Positions 52,312 through 61,647 of a stretch of DNA of 64,000 nucleotides are shown here, in pieces; the stretch's first letter is position 1, and every line of letters starts with the position of its first letter. The notes beneath the pieces are model-generated. The model ran no database searches, was not told the DNA's origin, and saw only the letters and a program-made list of their open reading frames with translations. A program made the translations under genes and the position numbers. The DNA comes from Candidatus Desulfarcum epimagneticum (GTDB lineage: Bacteria > Desulfobacterota > Desulfobacteria > Desulfobacterales > CR-1): assembly GCA_900659855.1 (NCBI GenBank), contig CAACVI010000001.1:425179-489178 (forward strand), read 5' to 3'.

Positions 52312-52470
52312 AGGGCTCGCTCAAAAATAACTTTACATTTTGGAAGCCAATTCATCCTGCCTGACTGCGTTATGAAAACTCGGCATATCCTGATATGCCT
52401 CAAGTTTTCACGCCTTGTCAGACAGGCGACTTAACTCCCAAAATTGTAAACTAATTTTTGAGCGAACCCT
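52312..52470 (+). repeat. MITE-like long inverted repeat, family B (full copy)
   Basis: A 159-base element whose ends are AGGGCTCGCTCAAAAAT and ATTTTTGAGCGAACCCT, near-perfect inverse complements. Inner segments also pair: GCCTGACTGCG...GAAAACTCGGCATATC against GATATGCC...GTTTTCACGCCTTGTC. Its last base is the end of the stop codon of the neighbouring ABC ATPase gene. No transposase is encoded. Confidence 0.8.
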
Positions 52471-53519
52471 TATGGCGCCACGATCCAGATTTCGCTTTTG
52501 ACAAGGGCGGCCCGCGCCGTTTCTCCCTCGGGAGGGGGCGAGGCCAGGTCAAAGTAAAGGCGGGTTTTGTTTTGTGTCTCCAGGCATGTCTGGAAATGCC
52601 CTCCTTTGAAGACGCGCTCCCGCGCGATCCCGGACACCACCATGGCGGCGTCCGGGGGAGGTGGGTTTTTTGCGTCCACGAGTCGGGCCGCCCGCGGGCG
52701 AATGACCGCCATGACCCGGGCGCCGGGCGCCTGTTTTTTTGGCGGCTCCAGCGTCCCGACACGGGTTTCAATCCGGCCGTTTTCATCGGCCCGGCCCTTT
52801 AGAATGTTTTTGAATCCCAAAAAGCGGGCCACGCCTTCCGAGGCCGGACGCCGGTAGAGATTTTCCGGCGAGTCCTGCTGACGGATCTCCCCCATGTCCA
52901 TGACGGCCACGCTGTCGGACACGGCGAACGCCTCGGCCTGGTCGTGGGTCACAAACACCGTAGTGGTTCCCACGGCCTTGATGATGCGTTTTAAATCCAT
53001 CATCAAACGCTCCCGAAGCGCCCGGTCCAGGGCGCCCATGGGCTCGTCCAGAAGCAGAAGTCTCGGGCGGGGCGCCAGACTCCGGGCCAGCGCCGTCCGC
53101 TGGCGCTCCCCGCCGGAGAGGTCGGCCACATCCCTTTTTTCAAATCCTTCCAGCCCCGTTAGGGCCAGCATCTCCCGGACCCGTTTTTCAATCTCCGGTT
53201 TGGCCCTGTTTTCCATTTCCAGGCCAAAGGCGATGTTGTCAAACACGTTTTTATGGGGAAACAGGGCGAACTCCTGGAACATCATGCCGAAGCGGCGGCG
53301 ATGGGTTTTCACCCCGGCCATGTCCCGGCCGTCAAAGCAAACCGCGCCCCGGTCCGCCTTCTCAAGACCCGCGATGATTCGAAGAAGGGTGGTTTTCCCC
53401 GATCCCGAGGGGCCCAAAAGGCACAGGATGCCGCCTTTTTCATGAGAAAGGGAGACGCTTTTCAAAACCGTTTTTCCGGCCAGCTTTTTTTCCACATGGG
53501 ATATTTCAAGGATGGGCAT
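52470..53519 (-). CDS. thiQ: ABC transporter ATPase, probable thiamine importer
   Basis: The cytosolic ATPase of the importer encoded with the next two genes. The 349-residue protein has Walker A GPSGSGKTT (36-44), signature LSGGERQRTALARS and LLLLDEPMGALD. ThiQ of enteric bacteria is near 230 residues; here about 110 C-terminal residues form a regulatory TOBE-like domain, as in PotA or FbpC. It starts on the stop of the permease gene (TGATG). The TPP riboswitch ahead of the operon favours thiamine. It ends at the boundary of the family B repeat. Confidence 0.82.
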   Translation of the reverse strand: MPILEISHVEKKLAGKTVLKSVSLSHEKGGILCLLGPSGSGKTTLLRIIAGLEKADRGAVCFDGRDMAGVKTHRRRFGMMFQEFALFPHKNVFDNIAFGLEMENRAKPEIEKRVREMLALTGLEGFEKRDVADLSGGERQRTALARSLAPRPRLLLLDEPMGALDRALRERLMMDLKRIIKAVGTTTVFVTHDQAEAFAVSDSVAVMDMGEIRQQDSPENLYRRPASEGVARFLGFKNILKGRADENGRIETRVGTLEPPKKQAPGARVMAVIRPRAARLVDAKNPPPPDAAMVVSGIARERVFKGGHFQTCLETQNKTRLYFDLASPPPEGETARAALVKSEIWIVAP

Positions 53520-55147
53520 CAGATGTCTCCTGTCCAGCCGGCCCCGGCCCGGTCCATCAGCAGGAACCCGGCGGCGGAAAAGGCCATGAGAAGACAGCTC
53601 ATGGCCATGGCCTGGCCGTGGTTGAGCGCCCCGGGTTGGCCCAGGAAGCGGTAGATGGCCACCGGGAGGGTGGGGGCGTCCGGCCGGGCCACAAAGGCGG
53701 CGGCCCCGAATTCCCCCATGCTGATGGTGAAGGCGAACACCCCCGCCGCCACCATGGCCCGGGACACGGCCGGAAGATCCACCGCGCGCCAGACGCGAAA
53801 GGACGACGCGCCCAGAACCGCCGCGGCGTCCCTCAGGATTTGGGGAACGCCCCGCATGGCCGGCAGGAGAATTCGCGTGGCGAAGGGAAAGGCCACCAGC
53901 GCGTGGGCGATGGGAATGAGCATGACCCCGGCCCTTAAGTTCAAAGGCGGCCGGTCCAGCGCGATGATAAATCCAAACCCCAGGGTCACGGCGGAGGTGG
54001 ACAGGGGAAGCATGAAAACCGGGTCAAAAAAGGCGGACCAAAGGCCCTTTGCCCGGCTCAAAAAAAGGGCCGCCGGCAAAGCCAGGCCCGCCGCCATGAC
54101 CATGGCGGCGGCGGCGAATTGAAAGGAAAGGAGCGCCGATTCCAGGGGAGGGGCGAAAAAGACCGAATCGGCCGGGTTTTGGGTCAGCGCCCGGTAAAAG
54201 ACAAAAGACAGGCCGTCCGGACCTGAGACCGAGGCCGCCGCCAGCGCCGCGAGGGGGGCGCCCAAAAACAGCGAGGCCAAACCAAGGGGCAGCGCCGCCG
54301 TGATTTTCTCCCGAACGCCCGCGGGCCTTCGCCGGGCCGCCGGGCCGGGGGTCAAAGGGACGGCGCTTCGCCGCTGGATTCCGGCGTGGACCCACATCAC
54401 CGGGAAAGTGAAAAGAATTTGAACCAGGGAAAGGGCGGCGGCGGCGGGCAGGTTGAAAATATGGGCCGCCTGGCGGTATATTTCCACCTCAATGGTGGAA
54501 AATCGCGTCCCCCCGAGGACCAGAATCACCCCGAAACTGGAAAAGCAGAACACAAAGACCAAAAGCCCCGCCGCCGCCAGCACGGGCCTGAGAAGGGGCA
54601 GGGTGATTTTCACAAAGGCTTTCACAGGCGAGGCGCCCAGAGTCCGGGCCGCCTCCGCCGCGCCGGGCGCGATGTTTTTCCAGAACCCCTCCACCATTCT
54701 TAAAACCACCGCATAGTTGTAAAACACATGGGCCGCAAGGATCATCCAGATGGAGCCCTCCCCGGGGGCTGAAAAACCCCAGAACGCACCAAGGGCGCGG
54801 AACCCGGCGGCCACCGCCACGGTGGGCAGGACGAATGGAATGGTGAAAAAGGATTTCAGCGCGTTTTTTCCCCAAAAATCGTATCGGCAAAACACATAGG
54901 CCCCGGGCAGGGCCAGGGCAAAGGTGAGAAGGGTGGACACGGCGGCCTGCCAGGTGGTGAACCACAGGATTTTGAAGAAAAAAGGCGCTGTCAGAAGTTT
55001 TGTTAAGGGGGCCGTCCCCCAGTCCCCGGCTGAAAAAAAACTCAGCTTGAAAATTTGGGACAGGGGATAGAAATAGAAGGCCCCCAAAAAAACAAGGGGC
55101 GGGATTAAAAACAAAAGCTCCCGGCGGAAAGGCGCGAGCGGCTTCAT
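53519..55147 (-). CDS. thiP: ABC transporter permease, ThiP-like double permease
   Basis: A 542-residue inner-membrane permease with two copies of the six-span permease domain in one chain, as in ThiP and FbpB. EAA-type loops are seen in both halves (EAARTLGASPVKAFVKITLP, and RDAAAVLGASSFRVWRAVDLP). The ATG at 55147 follows the ThiB-like stop after one base, with a GGGAG site inside that gene; the open frame upstream of it is shadow sequence. It works with the ATPase and binding protein beside it. Confidence 0.85.
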   Translation of the reverse strand: MKPLAPFRRELLFLIPPLVFLGAFYFYPLSQIFKLSFFSAGDWGTAPLTKLLTAPFFFKILWFTTWQAAVSTLLTFALALPGAYVFCRYDFWGKNALKSFFTIPFVLPTVAVAAGFRALGAFWGFSAPGEGSIWMILAAHVFYNYAVVLRMVEGFWKNIAPGAAEAARTLGASPVKAFVKITLPLLRPVLAAAGLLVFVFCFSSFGVILVLGGTRFSTIEVEIYRQAAHIFNLPAAAALSLVQILFTFPVMWVHAGIQRRSAVPLTPGPAARRRPAGVREKITAALPLGLASLFLGAPLAALAAASVSGPDGLSFVFYRALTQNPADSVFFAPPLESALLSFQFAAAAMVMAAGLALPAALFLSRAKGLWSAFFDPVFMLPLSTSAVTLGFGFIIALDRPPLNLRAGVMLIPIAHALVAFPFATRILLPAMRGVPQILRDAAAVLGASSFRVWRAVDLPAVSRAMVAAGVFAFTISMGEFGAAAFVARPDAPTLPVAIYRFLGQPGALNHGQAMAMSCLLMAFSAAGFLLMDRAGAGWTGDI

Positions 55148-55148
55148 G

Positions 55149-56222
55149 TCAGCGCAGCATCTCCCGGGTCCATGCCTCGATCCATTCCATGCGCTTTTCC
55201 GCGATTCTTTCATAGGGGATGAATCCCGGTTGTTCAGCCATCCGGGCGTATTTTTCAAAAACTTCCGGAAGCGCGGCCCCGGGATGGGTCGGGAAGACGA
55301 ACATGCTCAGCGGAATGTTTTCCTGGAAGGTTTTTGCGAGCATAAAGTCGATGAGCGCCCCGGCTTTTTTGGGATTTCGGGCCCCTTTCAGGATTCCGGC
55401 GAATTCGATCTGGCGAAAGCAGTCCCCCGGCCCGGTCAGGGCCGCCGTGGGGGGCGGCCCCTTCTTTCCAGGGGAAAAGTGGACCTCGGCCGCCGGGCTG
55501 GTGGCGTAGCTCACCACGATGGGCCGGCTCCCTTTTGAGGCGGCGGTGAAATGGCCCCAGTAGGCGTCGTTCCAGCCGTTGGTGGCCAGGACTTTGTTTT
55601 TTTTGAGTTTTTTCCAGAAATCCAGATATCCCGACTCCCCGAAACGGCTGATGGTGGCCAAAAGAAAGGCCAGGCCCGGCGAGGACGTGGCGGGGTTTTG
55701 AACCACCACAAGGCCCTTGTATTCGGGCTTGATCAGATCGGCCATTTGGGCGGGCGGGGGGATGTTCCGGCCGGCGAGCCACCGGATGTCGTAGTTGAGG
55801 CACACGTCGCCGAAATCAATGGGCAAAAGCCGGTTTTGTTTGTCCAGCCTGAATGTCTCCGGGATTTTTTCCAGCGCCGGCGAGTGGTGGGGCTCGAACA
55901 GGCCGGCATCCAGGGCCCGGCTCAGAAAGGTGTTGTCCACCCCGAAAAAAACATCGGCCATGGGATTGTTTTTGGAAAGTATGGCCTGGTTCAGCGCCGC
56001 GCCCGCGTCCCCGGCCTTTAAAAATTTCACTTTCACATGGTTTCGCGCCTCAAAGGCGTCCATGACCTTCCGGCTGATGTTGAAACTGTCATGGGTCATG
56101 ACCACAAGGACGCCGGCGTCCCCGCCTGTCTTGTGTCCGGATCCCCAGACGCCCGCCGGAAAAACGACGGCCCCAAGGCCGGTTAAAATAAGCGCGCGCA
56201 AAAAAAGCCCTTTGAATGTCAT
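55149..56222 (-). CDS. thiB: Periplasmic substrate-binding protein, ThiB-like
   Basis: A 357-residue binding protein of the ABC importer. A signal peptide (MTFKGLFLRALILTGLGAVV...) is followed by VLVVMTHDSFNISRKVMDAFEARN, the family's characteristic opening. The middle holds FFGVDNTFLSRALDAGLF and LPIDFGDVCLNYD, as in thiamine-binding proteins. The gene lies directly behind a TPP riboswitch, which supports thiamine, or a thiamine breakdown product, as the ligand. Iron-binding relatives share the fold. Confidence 0.88.
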   Translation of the reverse strand: MTFKGLFLRALILTGLGAVVFPAGVWGSGHKTGGDAGVLVVMTHDSFNISRKVMDAFEARNHVKVKFLKAGDAGAALNQAILSKNNPMADVFFGVDNTFLSRALDAGLFEPHHSPALEKIPETFRLDKQNRLLPIDFGDVCLNYDIRWLAGRNIPPPAQMADLIKPEYKGLVVVQNPATSSPGLAFLLATISRFGESGYLDFWKKLKKNKVLATNGWNDAYWGHFTAASKGSRPIVVSYATSPAAEVHFSPGKKGPPPTAALTGPGDCFRQIEFAGILKGARNPKKAGALIDFMLAKTFQENIPLSMFVFPTHPGAALPEVFEKYARMAEQPGFIPYERIAEKRMEWIEAWTREMLR

Positions 56223-56267: not shown

Positions 56268-56305
56268 AAAAAATAAAAGCCGCCCGGGCAATACACACAG
56301 GCGGC
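56268..56305 (-). terminator. Riboswitch expression-platform terminator
   Basis: Stem GCCGCC/GGGCGGC at 56279-56305 followed on the minus strand by TTTTATTTTTTT. It is directly after the TPP aptamer and ahead of thiB, so it is probably formed when TPP is bound. Confidence 0.75.
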
Positions 56306-56313
56306 CTTTTAGT

Positions 56314-56412
56314 CATGGGTTTTCCTCCGCCGGCATTGTCCGGATCAGGTTAAACGGTCGGGCCTGAGTTAAAAAGGCCCCTCTCAGCCCGGTTTTCCCG
56401 GGCTCCCGAAAT
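56314..56412 (-). promoter_or_regulatory. TPP (THI-box) riboswitch
   Basis: The minus strand carries the TPP aptamer cores: GGGAGCCCG at the 5' side, GCTGAGAGGGG, then ACCTGATCCGGACAATGCC and GGCGGAGGAAAA. These match the CUGAGA and ACCUGAUCUGGAUAAUGCC pattern of the family. A terminator follows within about 10 bases, so TPP should shut off the thiBPQ operon. Confidence 0.92.
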
Positions 56413-56525
56413 GGTGAATGATTTGAGGGATTATTTTAGGGGGTTTTCATTCGTTTGTCAATTTTCCATTCTTTTTCGCAGCGTCTCACCGGGCTTTTTC
56501 AAAAAAGGCCGCCGACTTCTTAAAC

Positions 56526-56595: not shown

Positions 56596-57009
56596 TCAGT
56601 GTTTGCCCGGCGCCAGCGGGACTCCCCGGCGCTCGTGGGCGATGTAGGCCTCCATGGCCACCATTCGGGGATCATCCAGCGCCAGGGGTTTGCCCTCCAG
56701 GGGGTGCTGCAGGCACCAGTTGATCATTTCCCGAAGGGGGATCACCTTTCCGATCTGTTTCTGGAATTTGGGGTACGTTTCCGGGTGGGTGTTGGCCGCG
56801 TTGGGGTGGCACTGGGCGCAGGCCACGCCGTTTGTCCCGAGTTTGGGGCTCACCCAGAGGTTTCGGCCTTTTTTCACCACGCTTAAGTATTCTTCCTGCC
56901 AGCGCGCCATATCTTTTTCGGTGAACTCATCCGCAAATGCGATTCCCACGGCGACCATGACCGACACAAGCGCGACGATGAGGCGTCTTGATGTGTTTGA
57001 CATTGACAT
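56596..57009 (-). CDS. Monoheme c-type cytochrome
   Basis: A 137-residue periplasmic cytochrome. A signal peptide (RRLIVALVSVMVAVGIAFA) precedes one CxxCH heme site, Cys64-Cys67-His68 in VACAQCHPN. A methionine in DDPRMVAMEAY is a likely second axial ligand. It follows the phosphoesterase by 13 bases in an operon with the diheme peroxidase, for which it could be the electron donor; that role is inference. An AAAGGAGG site precedes the ATG at 57009. I cannot place it in a named cytochrome family. Confidence 0.83.
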   Translation of the reverse strand: MSMSNTSRRLIVALVSVMVAVGIAFADEFTEKDMARWQEEYLSVVKKGRNLWVSPKLGTNGVACAQCHPNAANTHPETYPKFQKQIGKVIPLREMINWCLQHPLEGKPLALDDPRMVAMEAYIAHERRGVPLAPGKH

Positions 57010-57022
57010 GTGCTTCCTCCTT

Positions 57023-58099
57023 TTAATAATGCGTTTGCGGGGCGATTCGTCTGCCGGGAGACTGGTGGGACACATCCTCCGGACGGCCGGTCGCGGCGTT
57101 GTAGGCCACCGTGCGCTCGGCGTTGTTGTAGAGGTTGTAGGTCATGTCCACGCGCCCTGTTTTGAGGTTGACAAACTGCCAGCCGGTGGCGTCGCGCTCA
57201 AAGAACGGGTCGGCCCGGTTCATGGGAACCGTGAGTTTGGGCAGATGCGTTTCGGCCTGGGAATAGCTCTGGGGATAGGGCCACGGCCAGGCGGTGGCCA
57301 TCACCGCGTGAAAGCTGATGTTGCCGATCTGGTTGTACTGAATCTGATGCACGTGGCCGTAAACCACCGTCACGTCGTCAAAGGGCCTTAAAAGGGCCTG
57401 AACCTCCTCCGCGTCTTCGGTCCAGAAATTCCATCCCTTGTAAATTTTCTGGATGGGGGAATGAGAAAACACCACCACCGGCGTGTTTTTCGGGAGCCCG
57501 GCGAGGTCTTTTTTGAGCCATTTTCGCTGCTTTTCCCCCACCATGAACGGCGATCCGTTGGGATTGTCCAGACCGGCCATTTCATCCATGCGGCGCTTCG
57601 CTGTGGGCCACCGGTCATAGGTCCACTCGTCGTGGGTCAGGATGCTGTTCAACGTGACAAAATGAACCCCCTTGTGGTTCCAGCTGTAATAATGGGGGCC
57701 GAAAAGCTCGGACCAGTATTCGCCCAGATCCAGGTAATAATCATGCTCCCCCATGACACAGTAATATTTGTAGTTGAGTTTGGCCAGCATCTCGGCGCCG
57801 TGATCCAGCTCCGGCTTTGTCCCGAGCTGGGCCAGGTCGCCCCCGAACACCACAAAATCGGGTCTGGGGCGAAGCATGTTGGTCTCGGCCACGGAGCGGA
57901 TCAGTCCCCGGTCCCAGTTTCGAACGAATTGGGAGCCCTTGATGTGCTGGATATGGGAGTCGGAAATATAGGCGAACGTGAAATTTTGAGACGAATCCGC
58001 GAAGGCGACTTCCACAAGACTCATGGGCAGGCCGGCCGCCACCGCGGCGGCGCCCATTCCTTTGAGAAAACCCCGGCGGGTGATGGGTCTGGTTTTCAT
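57023..58099 (-). CDS. Tat-exported calcineurin-like metallophosphoesterase
   Basis: A 358-residue periplasmic hydrolase. The N-terminus has a twin-arginine signal TRRGFLKGMGAAAVA. The two-metal site is visible: SDSHI, GGDLAQLG, MGEHDYY, FSHSP and GHVHQIQ, where the GNH of many relatives is GEH. It lies between the peroxidase (17 bases up) and the monoheme cytochrome (13 bases down). Members hydrolyse phosphodiesters or monoesters; why one is encoded with a cytochrome peroxidase is not known to me. The Tat machinery is in this window at 32-33 kb. Confidence 0.87.
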   Translation of the reverse strand: MKTRPITRRGFLKGMGAAAVAAGLPMSLVEVAFADSSQNFTFAYISDSHIQHIKGSQFVRNWDRGLIRSVAETNMLRPRPDFVVFGGDLAQLGTKPELDHGAEMLAKLNYKYYCVMGEHDYYLDLGEYWSELFGPHYYSWNHKGVHFVTLNSILTHDEWTYDRWPTAKRRMDEMAGLDNPNGSPFMVGEKQRKWLKKDLAGLPKNTPVVVFSHSPIQKIYKGWNFWTEDAEEVQALLRPFDDVTVVYGHVHQIQYNQIGNISFHAVMATAWPWPYPQSYSQAETHLPKLTVPMNRADPFFERDATGWQFVNLKTGRVDMTYNLYNNAERTVAYNAATGRPEDVSHQSPGRRIAPQTHY

Positions 58100-58116
58100 G
58101 ATTGTCTCCTTTTCTT

Positions 58117-59244
58117 TTATTTTTGGGCGAATTCAGGGCTGGTCAGGGCTTTCATGAAAGCCGTCAGGTCGCTGATCTGGCGCTCCGTCAGGTTGAGGGG
58201 ACGGATGCCGCCGCTCAGAAAGTCATTGACCCGGTCGCCTTTTTCCGTCACGCCTCCGTGGTTGTAGTGCTTGACCACCTCCCGCAGCTCCGTGATGCTG
58301 CCGTCATGCATGTAAGGCCCCGTGACCTCGATATTGCGCAGTGTGGGGGTTTTAAAGGCGCCCAGATCGTCAAATTTCCGGGTCACCGCAAAGCGCCCCA
58401 GCTCAGAGGTCCGCATGTCGGTCAAAACTCTCACATCCACCTCGGAGCCTGTGAGATCGGCCTTGATGAACTCATCCGCCAGCGCGGGCACATCCTCCTG
58501 AATATCGTTGATGCCCACGCCCACATTGTGAAAGCGGTTGTCCGTGAAAATCGCCTGGGTCTCTTCGATGACATGGCACGAGACGCAGCGCCCCTGGTTG
58601 ACGAACAGCTCAAATCCCCTTTTCTGCCTGGGAGTCAGCGCGTCTTCTTCTCCGCCGTAGCGCCAGCGGTCGAAGGGGGAATTTCCCGAAATTCGGGTCC
58701 GCTCAAAGGCGGCGATGGCCTGGGTCACCTCTTTCATGGTGATGGAGGCCGGGCCTTTGCCGAACACCTTTCGGAACTCGTTCCGATATTCCGGGTCCGC
58801 CCGGACGATGTTCAGGATGGGCTCGTGGGTTTTCAGCCCCATCTCAACGGGGTTGGTGAAGGGATGCAGGGCCTGATCCTCCAGGTCCGGGGACCGGCCG
58901 TCCCAGAAGAGTTTTTCGAAATAGGCGGAATTGACGACCGTGGGCGCGTTTCGGGTTCCGGTCAGCTTTTCGATGCCCTCCGACACCCTCAAGGGGCTGT
59001 CCGTGAAGGCTTTGGCTGCGTCGTGGCAGGTGGCGCAGCTGACCTCCCCGGTTGAGCTGAACCGTTTGTCGTGAAAGAGTTTTTCCCCCAGAATGATTTT
59101 TTCCGGGGTCTGCGGATTGTCCGCGGGATACTCCACGCCGGGAAGACCCAGCGGAGGCGCGGGCTCCGCCGAATCAGCGGGCATGGCGCCGATGAGGCAT
59201 ATCCATGCCGCGAAGAGAATGAGCCGGAAGTGACGATTTTTCAT
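58117..59244 (-). CDS. Diheme cytochrome c peroxidase (CcpA/MauG family)
   Basis: Reduces hydrogen peroxide in the periplasm with electrons from a cytochrome. The 375-residue protein has a signal peptide and two heme sites: Cys70-Cys73-His74 (CATCH) and Cys220-Cys223-His224 (CVSCH). Further family signs are GTRNAPTVVNSAYFEKLFWDGR as the region around 97-118, NPVEMG, and the C-terminal FKTPTLRNIEVTGPYMHDG. The first gene of a three-gene operon. MauG-type enzymes that modify proteins share this layout, so peroxidase is the best but not the only reading. Confidence 0.9.
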   Translation of the reverse strand: MKNRHFRLILFAAWICLIGAMPADSAEPAPPLGLPGVEYPADNPQTPEKIILGEKLFHDKRFSSTGEVSCATCHDAAKAFTDSPLRVSEGIEKLTGTRNAPTVVNSAYFEKLFWDGRSPDLEDQALHPFTNPVEMGLKTHEPILNIVRADPEYRNEFRKVFGKGPASITMKEVTQAIAAFERTRISGNSPFDRWRYGGEEDALTPRQKRGFELFVNQGRCVSCHVIEETQAIFTDNRFHNVGVGINDIQEDVPALADEFIKADLTGSEVDVRVLTDMRTSELGRFAVTRKFDDLGAFKTPTLRNIEVTGPYMHDGSITELREVVKHYNHGGVTEKGDRVNDFLSGGIRPLNLTERQISDLTAFMKALTSPEFAQK

Positions 59245-59278: not shown

Positions 59279-59315
59279 GGGTTCGCTCAAAAATCAGTTA
59301 TTTTTGAGCGAACCC
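59279..59315 (+). repeat. Family B repeat, minimal palindrome
   Basis: GGGTTCGCTCAAAAAT and its exact inverse complement separated by 5 bases. It equals the two ends of the full element at 52.3 kb joined with the inside lost. It lies upstream of the peroxidase gene. Confidence 0.8.
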
Positions 59316-59505: not shown

Positions 59506-61647
59506 TCACCCCCGCATCCAGGAATGGTAGCGCGCCACCCATTTTAACAGTTTTTCCGGTTTATGGGCTTTTTTCCACTCTCCGGCCGCGTATTTGTTGG
59601 CCTCGGCCATGGTGGGGTAAATATGGATGGCCCCCATGATTTTGTTCAGCCCCAGCCCGTGGGTCATGGCCAGGATGTATTCGGAAATCATGTCGCCGGC
59701 ATGGGCCCCCACGATGGTGACGCCCAGAATTTTGTCCGAGCCCGGCGCCGTGAGGACCTTGACGAATCCGCGATCCTCGGAATCCGCGATGGCCCGGTCC
59801 AGATCGTCGATCCGGTAAACGGTTTTTTCACAGGCGATGTCTTTCTCGGCGGCCTCCAGCTCATTCAATCCCACCCGGGCGACCTCCGGATCGGTGTAGG
59901 AGCACCAGGGGATGGCGCTGTAATTGACTTTAAAGGTTTTGAATTTTCCGAACAGGGCGTTGACCGCCGCGTGCCACGCCTGGTGGGCGGCGATGTGCGT
60001 GAACTGGTACGGCCCGGCCACATCTCCGGCGCAGTAGATGTTGGGAAAATTCGTCTGGAGCAGCTCATTGGTCCGGGGGGTCCGGCGCTTTGAAATCTCA
60101 ACGCCGATGTCCTCAAGGCCGAATCCCGTCACATTGGGCGCGCGCCCCACGGCCACGAGTATCTCATCAAAGGGCGCCCGAACCTCCCGGCCCTCATGCT
60201 CGCAGACCAGAATCTTTTCGTCCCCCTCGATCCGGACCTCTTTGGCCTGATGCCCGACCAGGACCCGGACGCCTTCGGATATGAACGCGTCTTTCACCAG
60301 CTCCGAAACCTCAGGGTCTTCGCGGCCCATGATTCGTGGCGCCATTTCCACCTGGGTCACTTCTGATCCCAGTCGGGCGAAGGCCTGGGCCAGCTCGCAC
60401 CCGATGGGACCGCCGCCCAGAACCGTCAGGCGTTTCGGGAGCTTTCGAAGCTCCCAGACATTGTCCGAGGTCAGGCAGGAGACCGAGTCCAGGCCCGGGA
60501 TGGGCGGGACAAAGGGACGGGCGCCGGTGGCCACGATGATGTTCCGGGCGGTCAGGGTCCGGCTCCCGACCTCCACTTCAAAGGGGGACACGATCCGGGC
60601 ATGGCCGCTGACGCATTCCACTCCCAGGGAGGAGTAGCGCTCCACGGAATCGTGGGGCGCCACCTTGTCGATGACCCGGCCCACCCTTTCCATCACCTTC
60701 GCAAAGTCAAACTCCACCTCGCTTTTGTCAAACCCGAAGTCTTCGGCCCGTTTGGCGTATGACAGCATTTTGGCGGAGCGGATGAGCGCCTTGCTGGGCA
60801 CGCAGCCGGTGTTTAAGCAGTCGCCGCCCATTTTATGGGCTTCGATCAGGACCACTTTGGCTTTCACCATGGCGGCCACGTAAGACGAGACCAGGCCGGC
60901 CGAGCCCGCGCCGATCACCGCCAGATTGTAGTCAAACTTTTTGGGTTTTGAAAAAGGCTTGTACACCCGCCGGGCTTTGACAATCGAGATGATTTTTTTG
61001 GCGATCAAAGGAAATATCCCCAGAAGGACGAATGAAAAAAGTAGCTCCGGCGACACGATCCCCTTTAACGATTCCAGTCTGCCGATCTGGGTCCCGGCGT
61101 TGACATACACAAAGGCGCCCGGGAGCATGCCGATCTGGCTCACCAGGTAGAAAGAAAGGGTTTTGATGGGCGTGAGCCCCATGGCCAGGTTGATGATGAA
61201 AAAGGGAAAAATCGGAACCAGCCTTAAGGTGAACAGGTAAAACGCCCCGTCTTTTTCAACGCCCTGGTTGATGGCTTTGAGCCTGTCCCCGGATTTTTTC
61301 TGGACATATTCCCGCAAAAGAAAACGGGAGACCAGAAACGCCAGGGTCGCGCCGATGGAGCTGGCGAATGACGCCGCCAAAAGGCCCGTCCACACCCCGA
61401 AAAGGGCGCCCCCGGCAAGGGTCATCACGGCCGCGCCGGGAAGGGAGAGCGCGGCCATAGTGATGTAGGCGCCCACATAGACGGCCAGGGTGAAAAACCG
61501 GTTGACGGCGTAAAAATCCTGAAACGCCTTCTGGGTCTCCTTGAAATAGTCCAGGGTGAAATAGCGCTGGGCGCCTGAGGCGAAAAAAACAGTCACCAGG
61601 ACCACAATCAAAAGAAAAATGATGATTTTGGCTTTTTTGCTTTTCAT
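59506..61647 (-). CDS. TVP38/DedA-like membrane domain fused to a disulfide oxidoreductase-type flavoprotein
   Basis: A 713-residue fusion. Residues 1-225 are a VTT/TVP38-type membrane domain with several spans (PGAAVMTLAGGALFG, VPIFPFFIINLAMGL). Residues about 240-713 are a pyridine nucleotide-disulfide oxidoreductase like mercuric reductase or lipoamide dehydrogenase: FAD loop VIGAGSAGLVSSYVAA, redox pair in GGDCLNTGCVPSKAL, NAD loop VLGGGPIGCELAQAF, and the C-terminal HIYPTMAEANKY acid-base site. There is no N-terminal metal-binding domain or vicinal C-terminal cysteine pair, so mercury is unlikely. A membrane-bound thiol or quinone reductase is a guess. Confidence 0.88.
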   Translation of the reverse strand: MKSKKAKIIIFLLIVVLVTVFFASGAQRYFTLDYFKETQKAFQDFYAVNRFFTLAVYVGAYITMAALSLPGAAVMTLAGGALFGVWTGLLAASFASSIGATLAFLVSRFLLREYVQKKSGDRLKAINQGVEKDGAFYLFTLRLVPIFPFFIINLAMGLTPIKTLSFYLVSQIGMLPGAFVYVNAGTQIGRLESLKGIVSPELLFSFVLLGIFPLIAKKIISIVKARRVYKPFSKPKKFDYNLAVIGAGSAGLVSSYVAAMVKAKVVLIEAHKMGGDCLNTGCVPSKALIRSAKMLSYAKRAEDFGFDKSEVEFDFAKVMERVGRVIDKVAPHDSVERYSSLGVECVSGHARIVSPFEVEVGSRTLTARNIIVATGARPFVPPIPGLDSVSCLTSDNVWELRKLPKRLTVLGGGPIGCELAQAFARLGSEVTQVEMAPRIMGREDPEVSELVKDAFISEGVRVLVGHQAKEVRIEGDEKILVCEHEGREVRAPFDEILVAVGRAPNVTGFGLEDIGVEISKRRTPRTNELLQTNFPNIYCAGDVAGPYQFTHIAAHQAWHAAVNALFGKFKTFKVNYSAIPWCSYTDPEVARVGLNELEAAEKDIACEKTVYRIDDLDRAIADSEDRGFVKVLTAPGSDKILGVTIVGAHAGDMISEYILAMTHGLGLNKIMGAIHIYPTMAEANKYAAGEWKKAHKPEKLLKWVARYHSWMRG

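Follow-up and report, generated by a model that had tools for sequence, protein, structure and literature searches.

A conserved three-gene cassette built around an altered metallophosphoesterase as a possible periplasmic redox unit

The window considered here, a stretch of 64,000 nucleotides of DNA from Candidatus Desulfarcum epimagneticum, carries an operon whose three products may form one periplasmic redox unit. A metallophosphoesterase (MPE) would exchange electrons with cytochromes, and a diheme protein (CCP) would couple the exchange to peroxide. This is the best explanation that we can draw from the sequences, and it is held tentatively, its chances being a little short of even. The families of the components are known; their combination, the GEHD motif of MPE and the clade of MPEs with changing electron carriers appear to be new.

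The operon and its distribution

The operon lies on the minus strand, from 59244 to 56596, in the order CCP–MPE–CYT, and all three open reading frames are intact. CCP (58117..59244, 375 aa), a MauG/MbnH-like diheme protein, comes first. After a gap of 17 bases it is followed by MPE (57023..58099, 358 aa), a calcineurin-like metallophosphoesterase, and after a further 13 bases by CYT (56596..57009, 137 aa), a SoxA/TsdA-type monoheme cytochrome. Each of the three genes is preceded by a Shine-Dalgarno-like site of its own. For CYT, the start was placed at an ATG with a GGAGG site, which gives the 137 residues; the mechanical open reading frame begins further upstream. Export is predicted for all three proteins, by the Tat pathway in the case of MPE, whose signal matches PF10518, and by the Sec pathway for CCP and CYT, whose signals are Sec-like by inspection. 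An intrinsic-terminator-like hairpin with a T-rich tail is found 3′ of CYT on the same strand (56563-56538; 10 pairs, 9 of them G-C). The original prediction of a three-gene operon, with gaps of exactly these lengths, a single terminator and three exported products, is therefore confirmed by this layout. Downstream of CYT a new operon opens with a TPP riboswitch (56419-56305) and has a thiamine-type ABC transporter binding protein as its first product; CYT may therefore be taken as the end of the cassette. The gene upstream of CCP encodes an unrelated-looking, membrane-fused pyridine-nucleotide-disulfide reductase. A promoter scan of the window returned 2 matches, against 1.0 expected from shuffles, and neither is in front of CCP.

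Scanning a genome collection with MPE gave 217 relatives, 80 of which were fetched (70-82% MPE identity). In 79 of these 80 loci CCP is directly upstream of MPE, and in 79 of 80 CYT is directly downstream, the exceptions being a locus at a contig edge (L032) and one with an odd reading frame (L023). A search for the conserved order had been proposed with the original prediction, which would have been refuted by an order unique to one genome. The order turns out to be widespread, since the 80 loci, judged by record titles, span at least 12 phyla: Desulfobacterota, Gemmatimonadota, Latescibacterota, Acidobacteriota, Hydrogenedentota, Omnitrophota, Pseudomonadota, Planctomycetota, Verrucomicrobiota, Zixibacteria, Bdellovibrionota and Armatimonadota. 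The hosts in Pseudomonadota include many methanotrophs as well as Nitrosomonas, Steroidobacter and Competibacter. The distribution is patchy. A close relative occurs in 10 of 247 genomes of the window's phylum, its own genome counted, and none was found in 95 other sampled genomes of its order. This patchiness and the high identity between phyla, taken together, suggest horizontal transfer of the cassette. The distance matrices of CCP, MPE and CYT correlate (r 0.55-0.68, Mantel p 0.001), as expected if the three travel together, and a diverged second subtype (L092, L100-L102), with MPEs that are 45-49% identical, shows all three genes in unchanged order. Neither a constant fourth gene nor a wider conserved neighbourhood was found among the 80 loci; regulators recur in a minority of them. 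Two long reading frames were considered as possible MPE fusions and set aside: that of L023 (1729 residues) has the appearance of a chimera or an assembly error in which the C-terminus of MPE, together with CYT, is replaced, and that of L100 (843 residues) is simply a long GC-rich frame.

The two cytochromes and the regulators

CCP matches PF03150, of the bCCP/MauG superfamily, at 1.6e-56, and no second PF03150 protein was found in the genome of the window. Its two CxxCH motifs (C70xxCH and C220xxCH) and Y327 are conserved in 78 of 78 relatives, E134 in 77 of 77, and W114, a Trp of the bridging type, in 75 of 77. According to one study, the six-coordinate heme of MauG has Tyr-His ligation, in place of the Met-His ligation of canonical enzymes (PMC6405878). 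In CCP, Y327 aligns with the Tyr of the di-heme enzyme 6e1c and is thereby predicted to be the MauG-type axial Tyr that replaces Met at the sixth-ligand position of the C-terminal heme. Thus, CCP resembles the diheme enzymes of the MauG-preMADH and MbnH-MbnP pairs in its superfamily, in having Tyr where bCCP has Met and in keeping the bridging-type Trp. It differs from them in staying below the curated cut-offs, the closest NCBIfam model being that of the MbnH family (TIGR04039, 260.7 bits, cut-off 362.9), with 215.5 bits for the MauG model (TIGR03791, cut-off 443.9). Its partners are also different: an MbnP-type partner gene is absent next to CCP, and the constant neighbours are a metallophosphoesterase and a Cys-type cytochrome. 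The superfamily, the Tyr and the nearest model all agree with the MauG-like nature that had been proposed for CCP from the window.

The closest published case is BthA of Burkholderia, a MauG-like diheme enzyme with a Tyr axial ligand. In the account of Rizzolo et al. (2019; PMC6405878), its gene is always beside that of a putative phosphatase, phosA, and the authors suggest that the two form a functional pair. However, phosA is described there as a putative purple acid phosphatase of the outer membrane, and the pair is described from Burkholderia, whereas the cassette encodes a GEHD MPE with predicted Tat export and is spread over the phyla listed above. Furthermore, the cassette has CYT as a third gene, and no SoxA-type cytochrome is mentioned in the accessible part of that account.

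CYT matches PF21342 at 3e-16 and has one CxxCH motif. Its AlphaFold model (pLDDT 91) matches the folds of TsdA (4wq7) and SoxA (1h31) with a probability of 1.00. In the alignment, the Cys of its 'MINWC' element, present in 80 of 80 relatives, coincides with the Cys that ligates the heme in TsdA and SoxA. PF21342, the fold, CxxCH and the position of the Cys ligand are therefore common to CYT and these enzymes. On the other hand, CYT has a single heme domain, and the thiosulfate-binding Arg/Arg/Ser are replaced by invariant Gln/Met/Pro. Arg119 (TsdA numbering) is invariant in TsdA and SoxA (PMC4423706); CYT has Met at this position in 80 of 80 relatives, and Gln and Pro at those of Arg109 and Ser127. 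Moreover, the profile of CYT fits the N-terminal domain of SoxA (45 bits) better than the catalytic domain (15 bits), and the SoxA model TIGR04484 is matched at 52.6 bits, below its cut-off of 110. Judged by these residues and profiles, CYT is a Cys-ligand-type cytochrome and not a standard thiosulfate enzyme; a standard thiosulfate dehydrogenase was rejected because the active-site Arg is replaced by the invariant Met.

A sulfur-oxidation module may nevertheless be envisaged, where CYT would bind sulfur species on its heme Cys, like TsdA and SoxA, and MPE would hydrolyse the product, like SoxB. The membership of CYT in the SoxA/TsdA family and its conserved Cys are in line with such a role. 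In S. meliloti pSymA, MPE-CYT adjoins soxYZ and a flavocytochrome c-like protein, and rhodanese or DsrE-like neighbours occur at some loci. The substitutions at the three thiosulfate-binding positions and the better fit to the non-catalytic domain of SoxA argue against this module, which we regard as improbable. It also departs from the Sox system in that the cassette has no SoxX and that SoxY, present in 12 of 40 cassette genomes, was not found in the other 28, including that of the window. The Sox multienzyme system was rejected on this last count.

At 16 of the 80 loci a Fur-family gene adjoins the cassette; all those found have Asp at what we take to be the Asp104 position of PerR, where Fur would have Glu. 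OxyR-like genes are divergently oriented at 5 of 80 loci, and in four of them a second Cys comes after a GHCLRD motif. Seven further loci encode a LysR-type DNA-binding domain that stands alone and is some 105 residues long. When examples of the regulators were compared with NCBIfam, the OxyR and most PerR models scored best, below their curated cut-offs. In the window itself, no PerR or OxyR gene is adjacent to the cassette. The PerR-type and OxyR-like regulators beside its relatives make peroxide the likely theme of the cassette. The cytochrome-peroxidase pair of the original prediction is thus supported as regards peroxide; the generic electron donor that it implied does not fit a cytochrome of the SoxA/TsdA type with a conserved Cys. 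CCP might simply scavenge peroxide with electrons from CYT, MPE being an unrelated hydrolase of the same operon; this would accord with these regulators and with the family of CCP. However, MPE shows the highest conservation among the three proteins (median identity 0.72, versus 0.61 and 0.63 for the other two), it stays with CYT where CCP is absent, and the clade to which it belongs retains carriers without CCP. Such a mechanism is therefore very improbable.

The altered metal site of MPE and the GEHD clade

MPE matches PF00149 with 53.4 bits (cut-off 21.5), and its nearest solved relative, by sequence and by fold, is GpdQ (3d03). A weak profile match links it to a purple acid phosphatase, and it scores 33 bits against the model of the cyclic-nucleotide phosphodiesterase CpdA (NF008359), below the cut-off of 225. 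Seven metal-ligand positions (D47, H49, D88, E118, H213, H249 and H251) are invariant in its relatives. The fold and six of these seven positions are shared with calcineurin-like phosphoesterases of the GpdQ/CpdA type. The remaining one is different: the metal ligand Asn80 of GpdQ aligns with Glu118, so that GNHD becomes GEHD. The structure model of MPE being of middling confidence (pLDDT 66), the assignment of E118 as a metal ligand rests on this alignment. Other differences are the Tat signal, Trp-rich elements (NFW, WPWPYP) and the redox partners. G117-E118-H119-D120 is kept in 81 of 81 cassette MPEs; in the window, the codons of the GEHDYYLDLG motif (residues 117-126) are at 57722..57751 on the minus strand. 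GNH[DE] is found in nine unrelated MPEs from genomes of the same order, and two further MPEs encoded in the window's genome have GNHD and GNHE.

A GEHD profile was run over the genomes of 398 Pseudomonadota, 247 Acidobacteriota and 241 members of a third phylum. The scores split into two groups with a clear gap, the upper group being above 250 bits. GEHD is present in 56 of 56 fetched upper-group loci; in the lower-scoring group, GNH[DE] was found where the motif was read, with GDHD in two cases. The GEHD sequences form one clade (72 rows, SH-aLRT 97) in a quick tree with long outgroup branches, from which a misread row (L201) and four long outgroup rows had been removed. Partners have changed at least five times on this tree. 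In 49 of the 56 loci, the gene directly after MPE encodes an electron carrier: a cupredoxin-type protein (24), a SoxA-like cytochrome (9), a cytochrome c (9) or a Rieske protein (7). These classes are per-locus assignments made by the analyst and agree with the Pfam counts for 68 downstream ORFs (Cupredoxin_1 22, Haem_bd 9, SoxA-TsdA 8, Rieske 7, DUF2231 6, COX2 6). The other seven loci have a DUF2231 membrane protein (5, with a cytochrome c gene near in at least two) or none of these classes (2). As for the lower-group controls, no redox family is found among the 25 families listed of the 27 beside them (28 ORFs; five loci had no downstream ORF and one was unassigned), and no CCP, CYT or cupredoxin was seen at the control loci. 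The two GDHD controls, which are unrelated, likewise had no redox neighbour that could be found.

Several members of the clade illustrate the variety of the carriers. In Gemmatirosa, the reading frame of MPE continues into a cupredoxin domain, giving a fusion. In Burkholderia and Cupriavidus, the GEHD MPE is followed by a cupredoxin or a CuA-like protein. Plasmids of Phyllobacterium and Sinorhizobium carry MPE-CYT without CCP, preceded by genes for an SCO protein and a small exported protein, in which cupredoxin-like His, Cys, His and Met are recognised by inspection. In Phyllobacterium and two further genomes, cbb3-type oxidase-like genes come after MPE-CYT. Most loci of the clade have no adjacent diheme CCP. 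Judged from its gene neighbourhoods, MPE is the constant element across the clade and the carrier an interchangeable one. The phosphoesterase, which had at first seemed the odd one out in the operon, thus belongs to a clade partnered with electron carriers.

Ten Trp are invariant in MPE among the cassette relatives. It may be imagined that CCP oxidises Trp or Tyr residues of MPE post-translationally, as MauG and MbnH do on their partners, with CYT supplying or removing electrons. The Trp themselves, the axial-type Tyr of the MauG/MbnH-like CCP and the suggested partnership of BthA with its neighbouring phosphatase are consistent with this possibility. Yet a rhizobial member with CYT and without CCP keeps most of the conserved Trp, most members of the GEHD clade have no diheme CCP beside them, and, among nine aligned members, no Trp is both confined to and common to all CCP-bearing ones. 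A MauG-type modification of MPE was discarded for this last reason, and we give this idea little chance. In the same alignment, Trp 129, 159, 226, 271 and 273 are present in CYT-bearing MPEs and absent from CYT-less ones; they are also found in a CCP-less, CYT-bearing member. These five residues do not look like targets of CCP and may be used for docking of CYT or as an electron path to it.

Possible mechanism and significance

A constant MPE next to copper, iron-sulfur or heme carriers that replace one another, with one fusion, is most simply read as electron exchange between MPE and the carrier, and the change from Asn to Glu suggests that it would take place at the two-metal site. In the redox unit that we favour, MPE would not be a free-standing phosphoesterase. 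It would be a redox-active or redox-coupled two-metal protein of calcineurin-like fold, and it may carry out oxidation-reduction chemistry instead of ordinary phosphate-ester cleavage. CYT, with its Cys/His-type heme, would accept or deliver single electrons at the two-metal site, and CCP, with its MauG-type diheme centre, would couple this exchange to H2O2, probably the terminal electron acceptor. In other members of the GEHD clade, a cupredoxin, a Rieske protein or an ordinary cytochrome c would take the role of the carrier. The operon, its conservation, the motif, the exchange of partners, the fusion and the neighbouring regulators can be read from the sequences; from these we infer the electron flow and its direction, the identity of the metals and peroxide as the acceptor. 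Three points weigh against the redox unit: gene neighbourhoods are indirect evidence for a redox-active metal site, GDHD is present in two unrelated controls for which no redox neighbour was found, and in the window neither PerR nor OxyR adjoins the cassette.

Hydrolysis by MPE is possible, because all the other metal-ligand positions of the hydrolases are kept. The main rival to the redox unit builds on this: MPE would be a hydrolase, of phosphodiesters or similar compounds, resembling purple acid phosphatases and active in one oxidation state, and the carriers would set this state, as a peroxide or redox switch. Metal-binding residues at all hydrolase ligand positions, the kinship with GpdQ, a glycerophosphodiesterase, the weak match to a purple acid phosphatase and regulators of the peroxide-sensor type are all compatible with it. 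Nevertheless, phosphate or lipid genes do not recur as constant neighbours in the flanks of the cassette, it is unusual in a hydrolase to see Asn invariably replaced by Glu as a catalytic metal ligand, and a three-protein apparatus would be elaborate just for setting a metal valence. A switched hydrolase is therefore rather unlikely. From the 'undescribed redox-linked phosphoester system' of the original prediction, the redox link is retained, owing to the carrier partners, and the phosphoester part is not, as no finding shows phosphoester chemistry.

Hydrolase folds have been turned to redox chemistry elsewhere, examples being flavodiiron proteins (metallo-beta-lactamase fold) and PhnZ/MIOX (HD fold). 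In a broader view, which we find possible and on balance doubtful, the whole GEHD clade would consist of periplasmic two-metal oxidoreductases derived from calcineurin-like phosphoesterases via the Asn-to-Glu change, the cassette being their peroxide-linked branch. In the open-access literature, outside which most subscription papers lie, no description of the cassette or of the GEHD clade was found, nor any metallophosphoesterase paired in a relevant sense with MauG, a cupredoxin or a methanotroph peroxidase. The novelty of both is thus provisional. The copper-repressible CorA/CorB of methanotrophs was considered and is a different pair. An MPE gene is also named in the arsenic gene-cluster figure of a Thioalkalivibrio paper.

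If the redox unit is real, many genes labelled 'metallophosphoesterase' would belong to a redox family, marked by GEHD and a neighbouring electron carrier. The comparison of GEHD with GNHD members, with or without a carrier, can easily be applied to other collections of genomes. The cassette would also open an experimental approach to those MauG-like diheme enzymes that still lack a known partner, and it would link methanotrophs, nitrifiers, acidobacteria and anaerobes through a common periplasmic response to peroxide.

Surroundings of the cassette in the window

On the minus strand, at 59506-61647, a single fusion joins a VTT-domain membrane protein to a flavoprotein resembling mercuric reductase and dihydrolipoamide dehydrogenase. 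A perfect inverted repeat, GGGTTCGCTCAAAAAT, lies at 59279-59315, between the gene of the MauG/MbnH-like diheme protein (CCP) and its upstream gene. Further copies lie at 52313 and 52454, within 52313-52469. Four matches stand against 0.1 expected. The repeat probably belongs to a family of short palindromic repeats. Also near the cassette is an operon for a thiamine-type ABC transporter, preceded on its 5′ side by a TPP riboswitch (56305-56419, minus strand) and encoding a solute-binding protein (55149-56222), a permease (53519-55258) and an ATPase (52470-53519).

Variation at related loci

Upstream of CCP, seven loci (L021, L040, L046, L051, L053, L065 and L069) carry, adjoining the cassette, a LysR-type DNA-binding domain that is encoded on its own, is about 105 residues long and lacks an effector domain. 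On a Methylocystis bryophila plasmid, the metallophosphoesterase (MPE; L091:5935-7011, 65% identity, W273 lost) is an orphan with neither CCP nor the monoheme cytochrome CYT, and transposase genes are close by. At L023:8001-13187, where CYT is missing, a beta-helix-like repeat protein is continuous with the MPE frame, possibly through an assembly chimera.

GEHD phosphoesterases with other carriers

In the wider clade of GEHD phosphoesterases, a Gemmatirosa plasmid protein (L136:4977-6242) carries a C-terminal amicyanin-like cupredoxin domain in the same frame. At acidobacterial loci L190-L196, a Rieske protein is encoded 3′ of the phosphoesterase, and several of them also show an ECF sigma factor-like frame downstream. 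On Sinorhizobium meliloti pSymA (L094:5088-10229), genes for a cupredoxin-like protein, a GEHD phosphoesterase and a SoxA-like cytochrome adjoin soxYZ and the genes of a cytochrome and of a protein resembling flavocytochrome c; this set could be a sulfur-linked branch.
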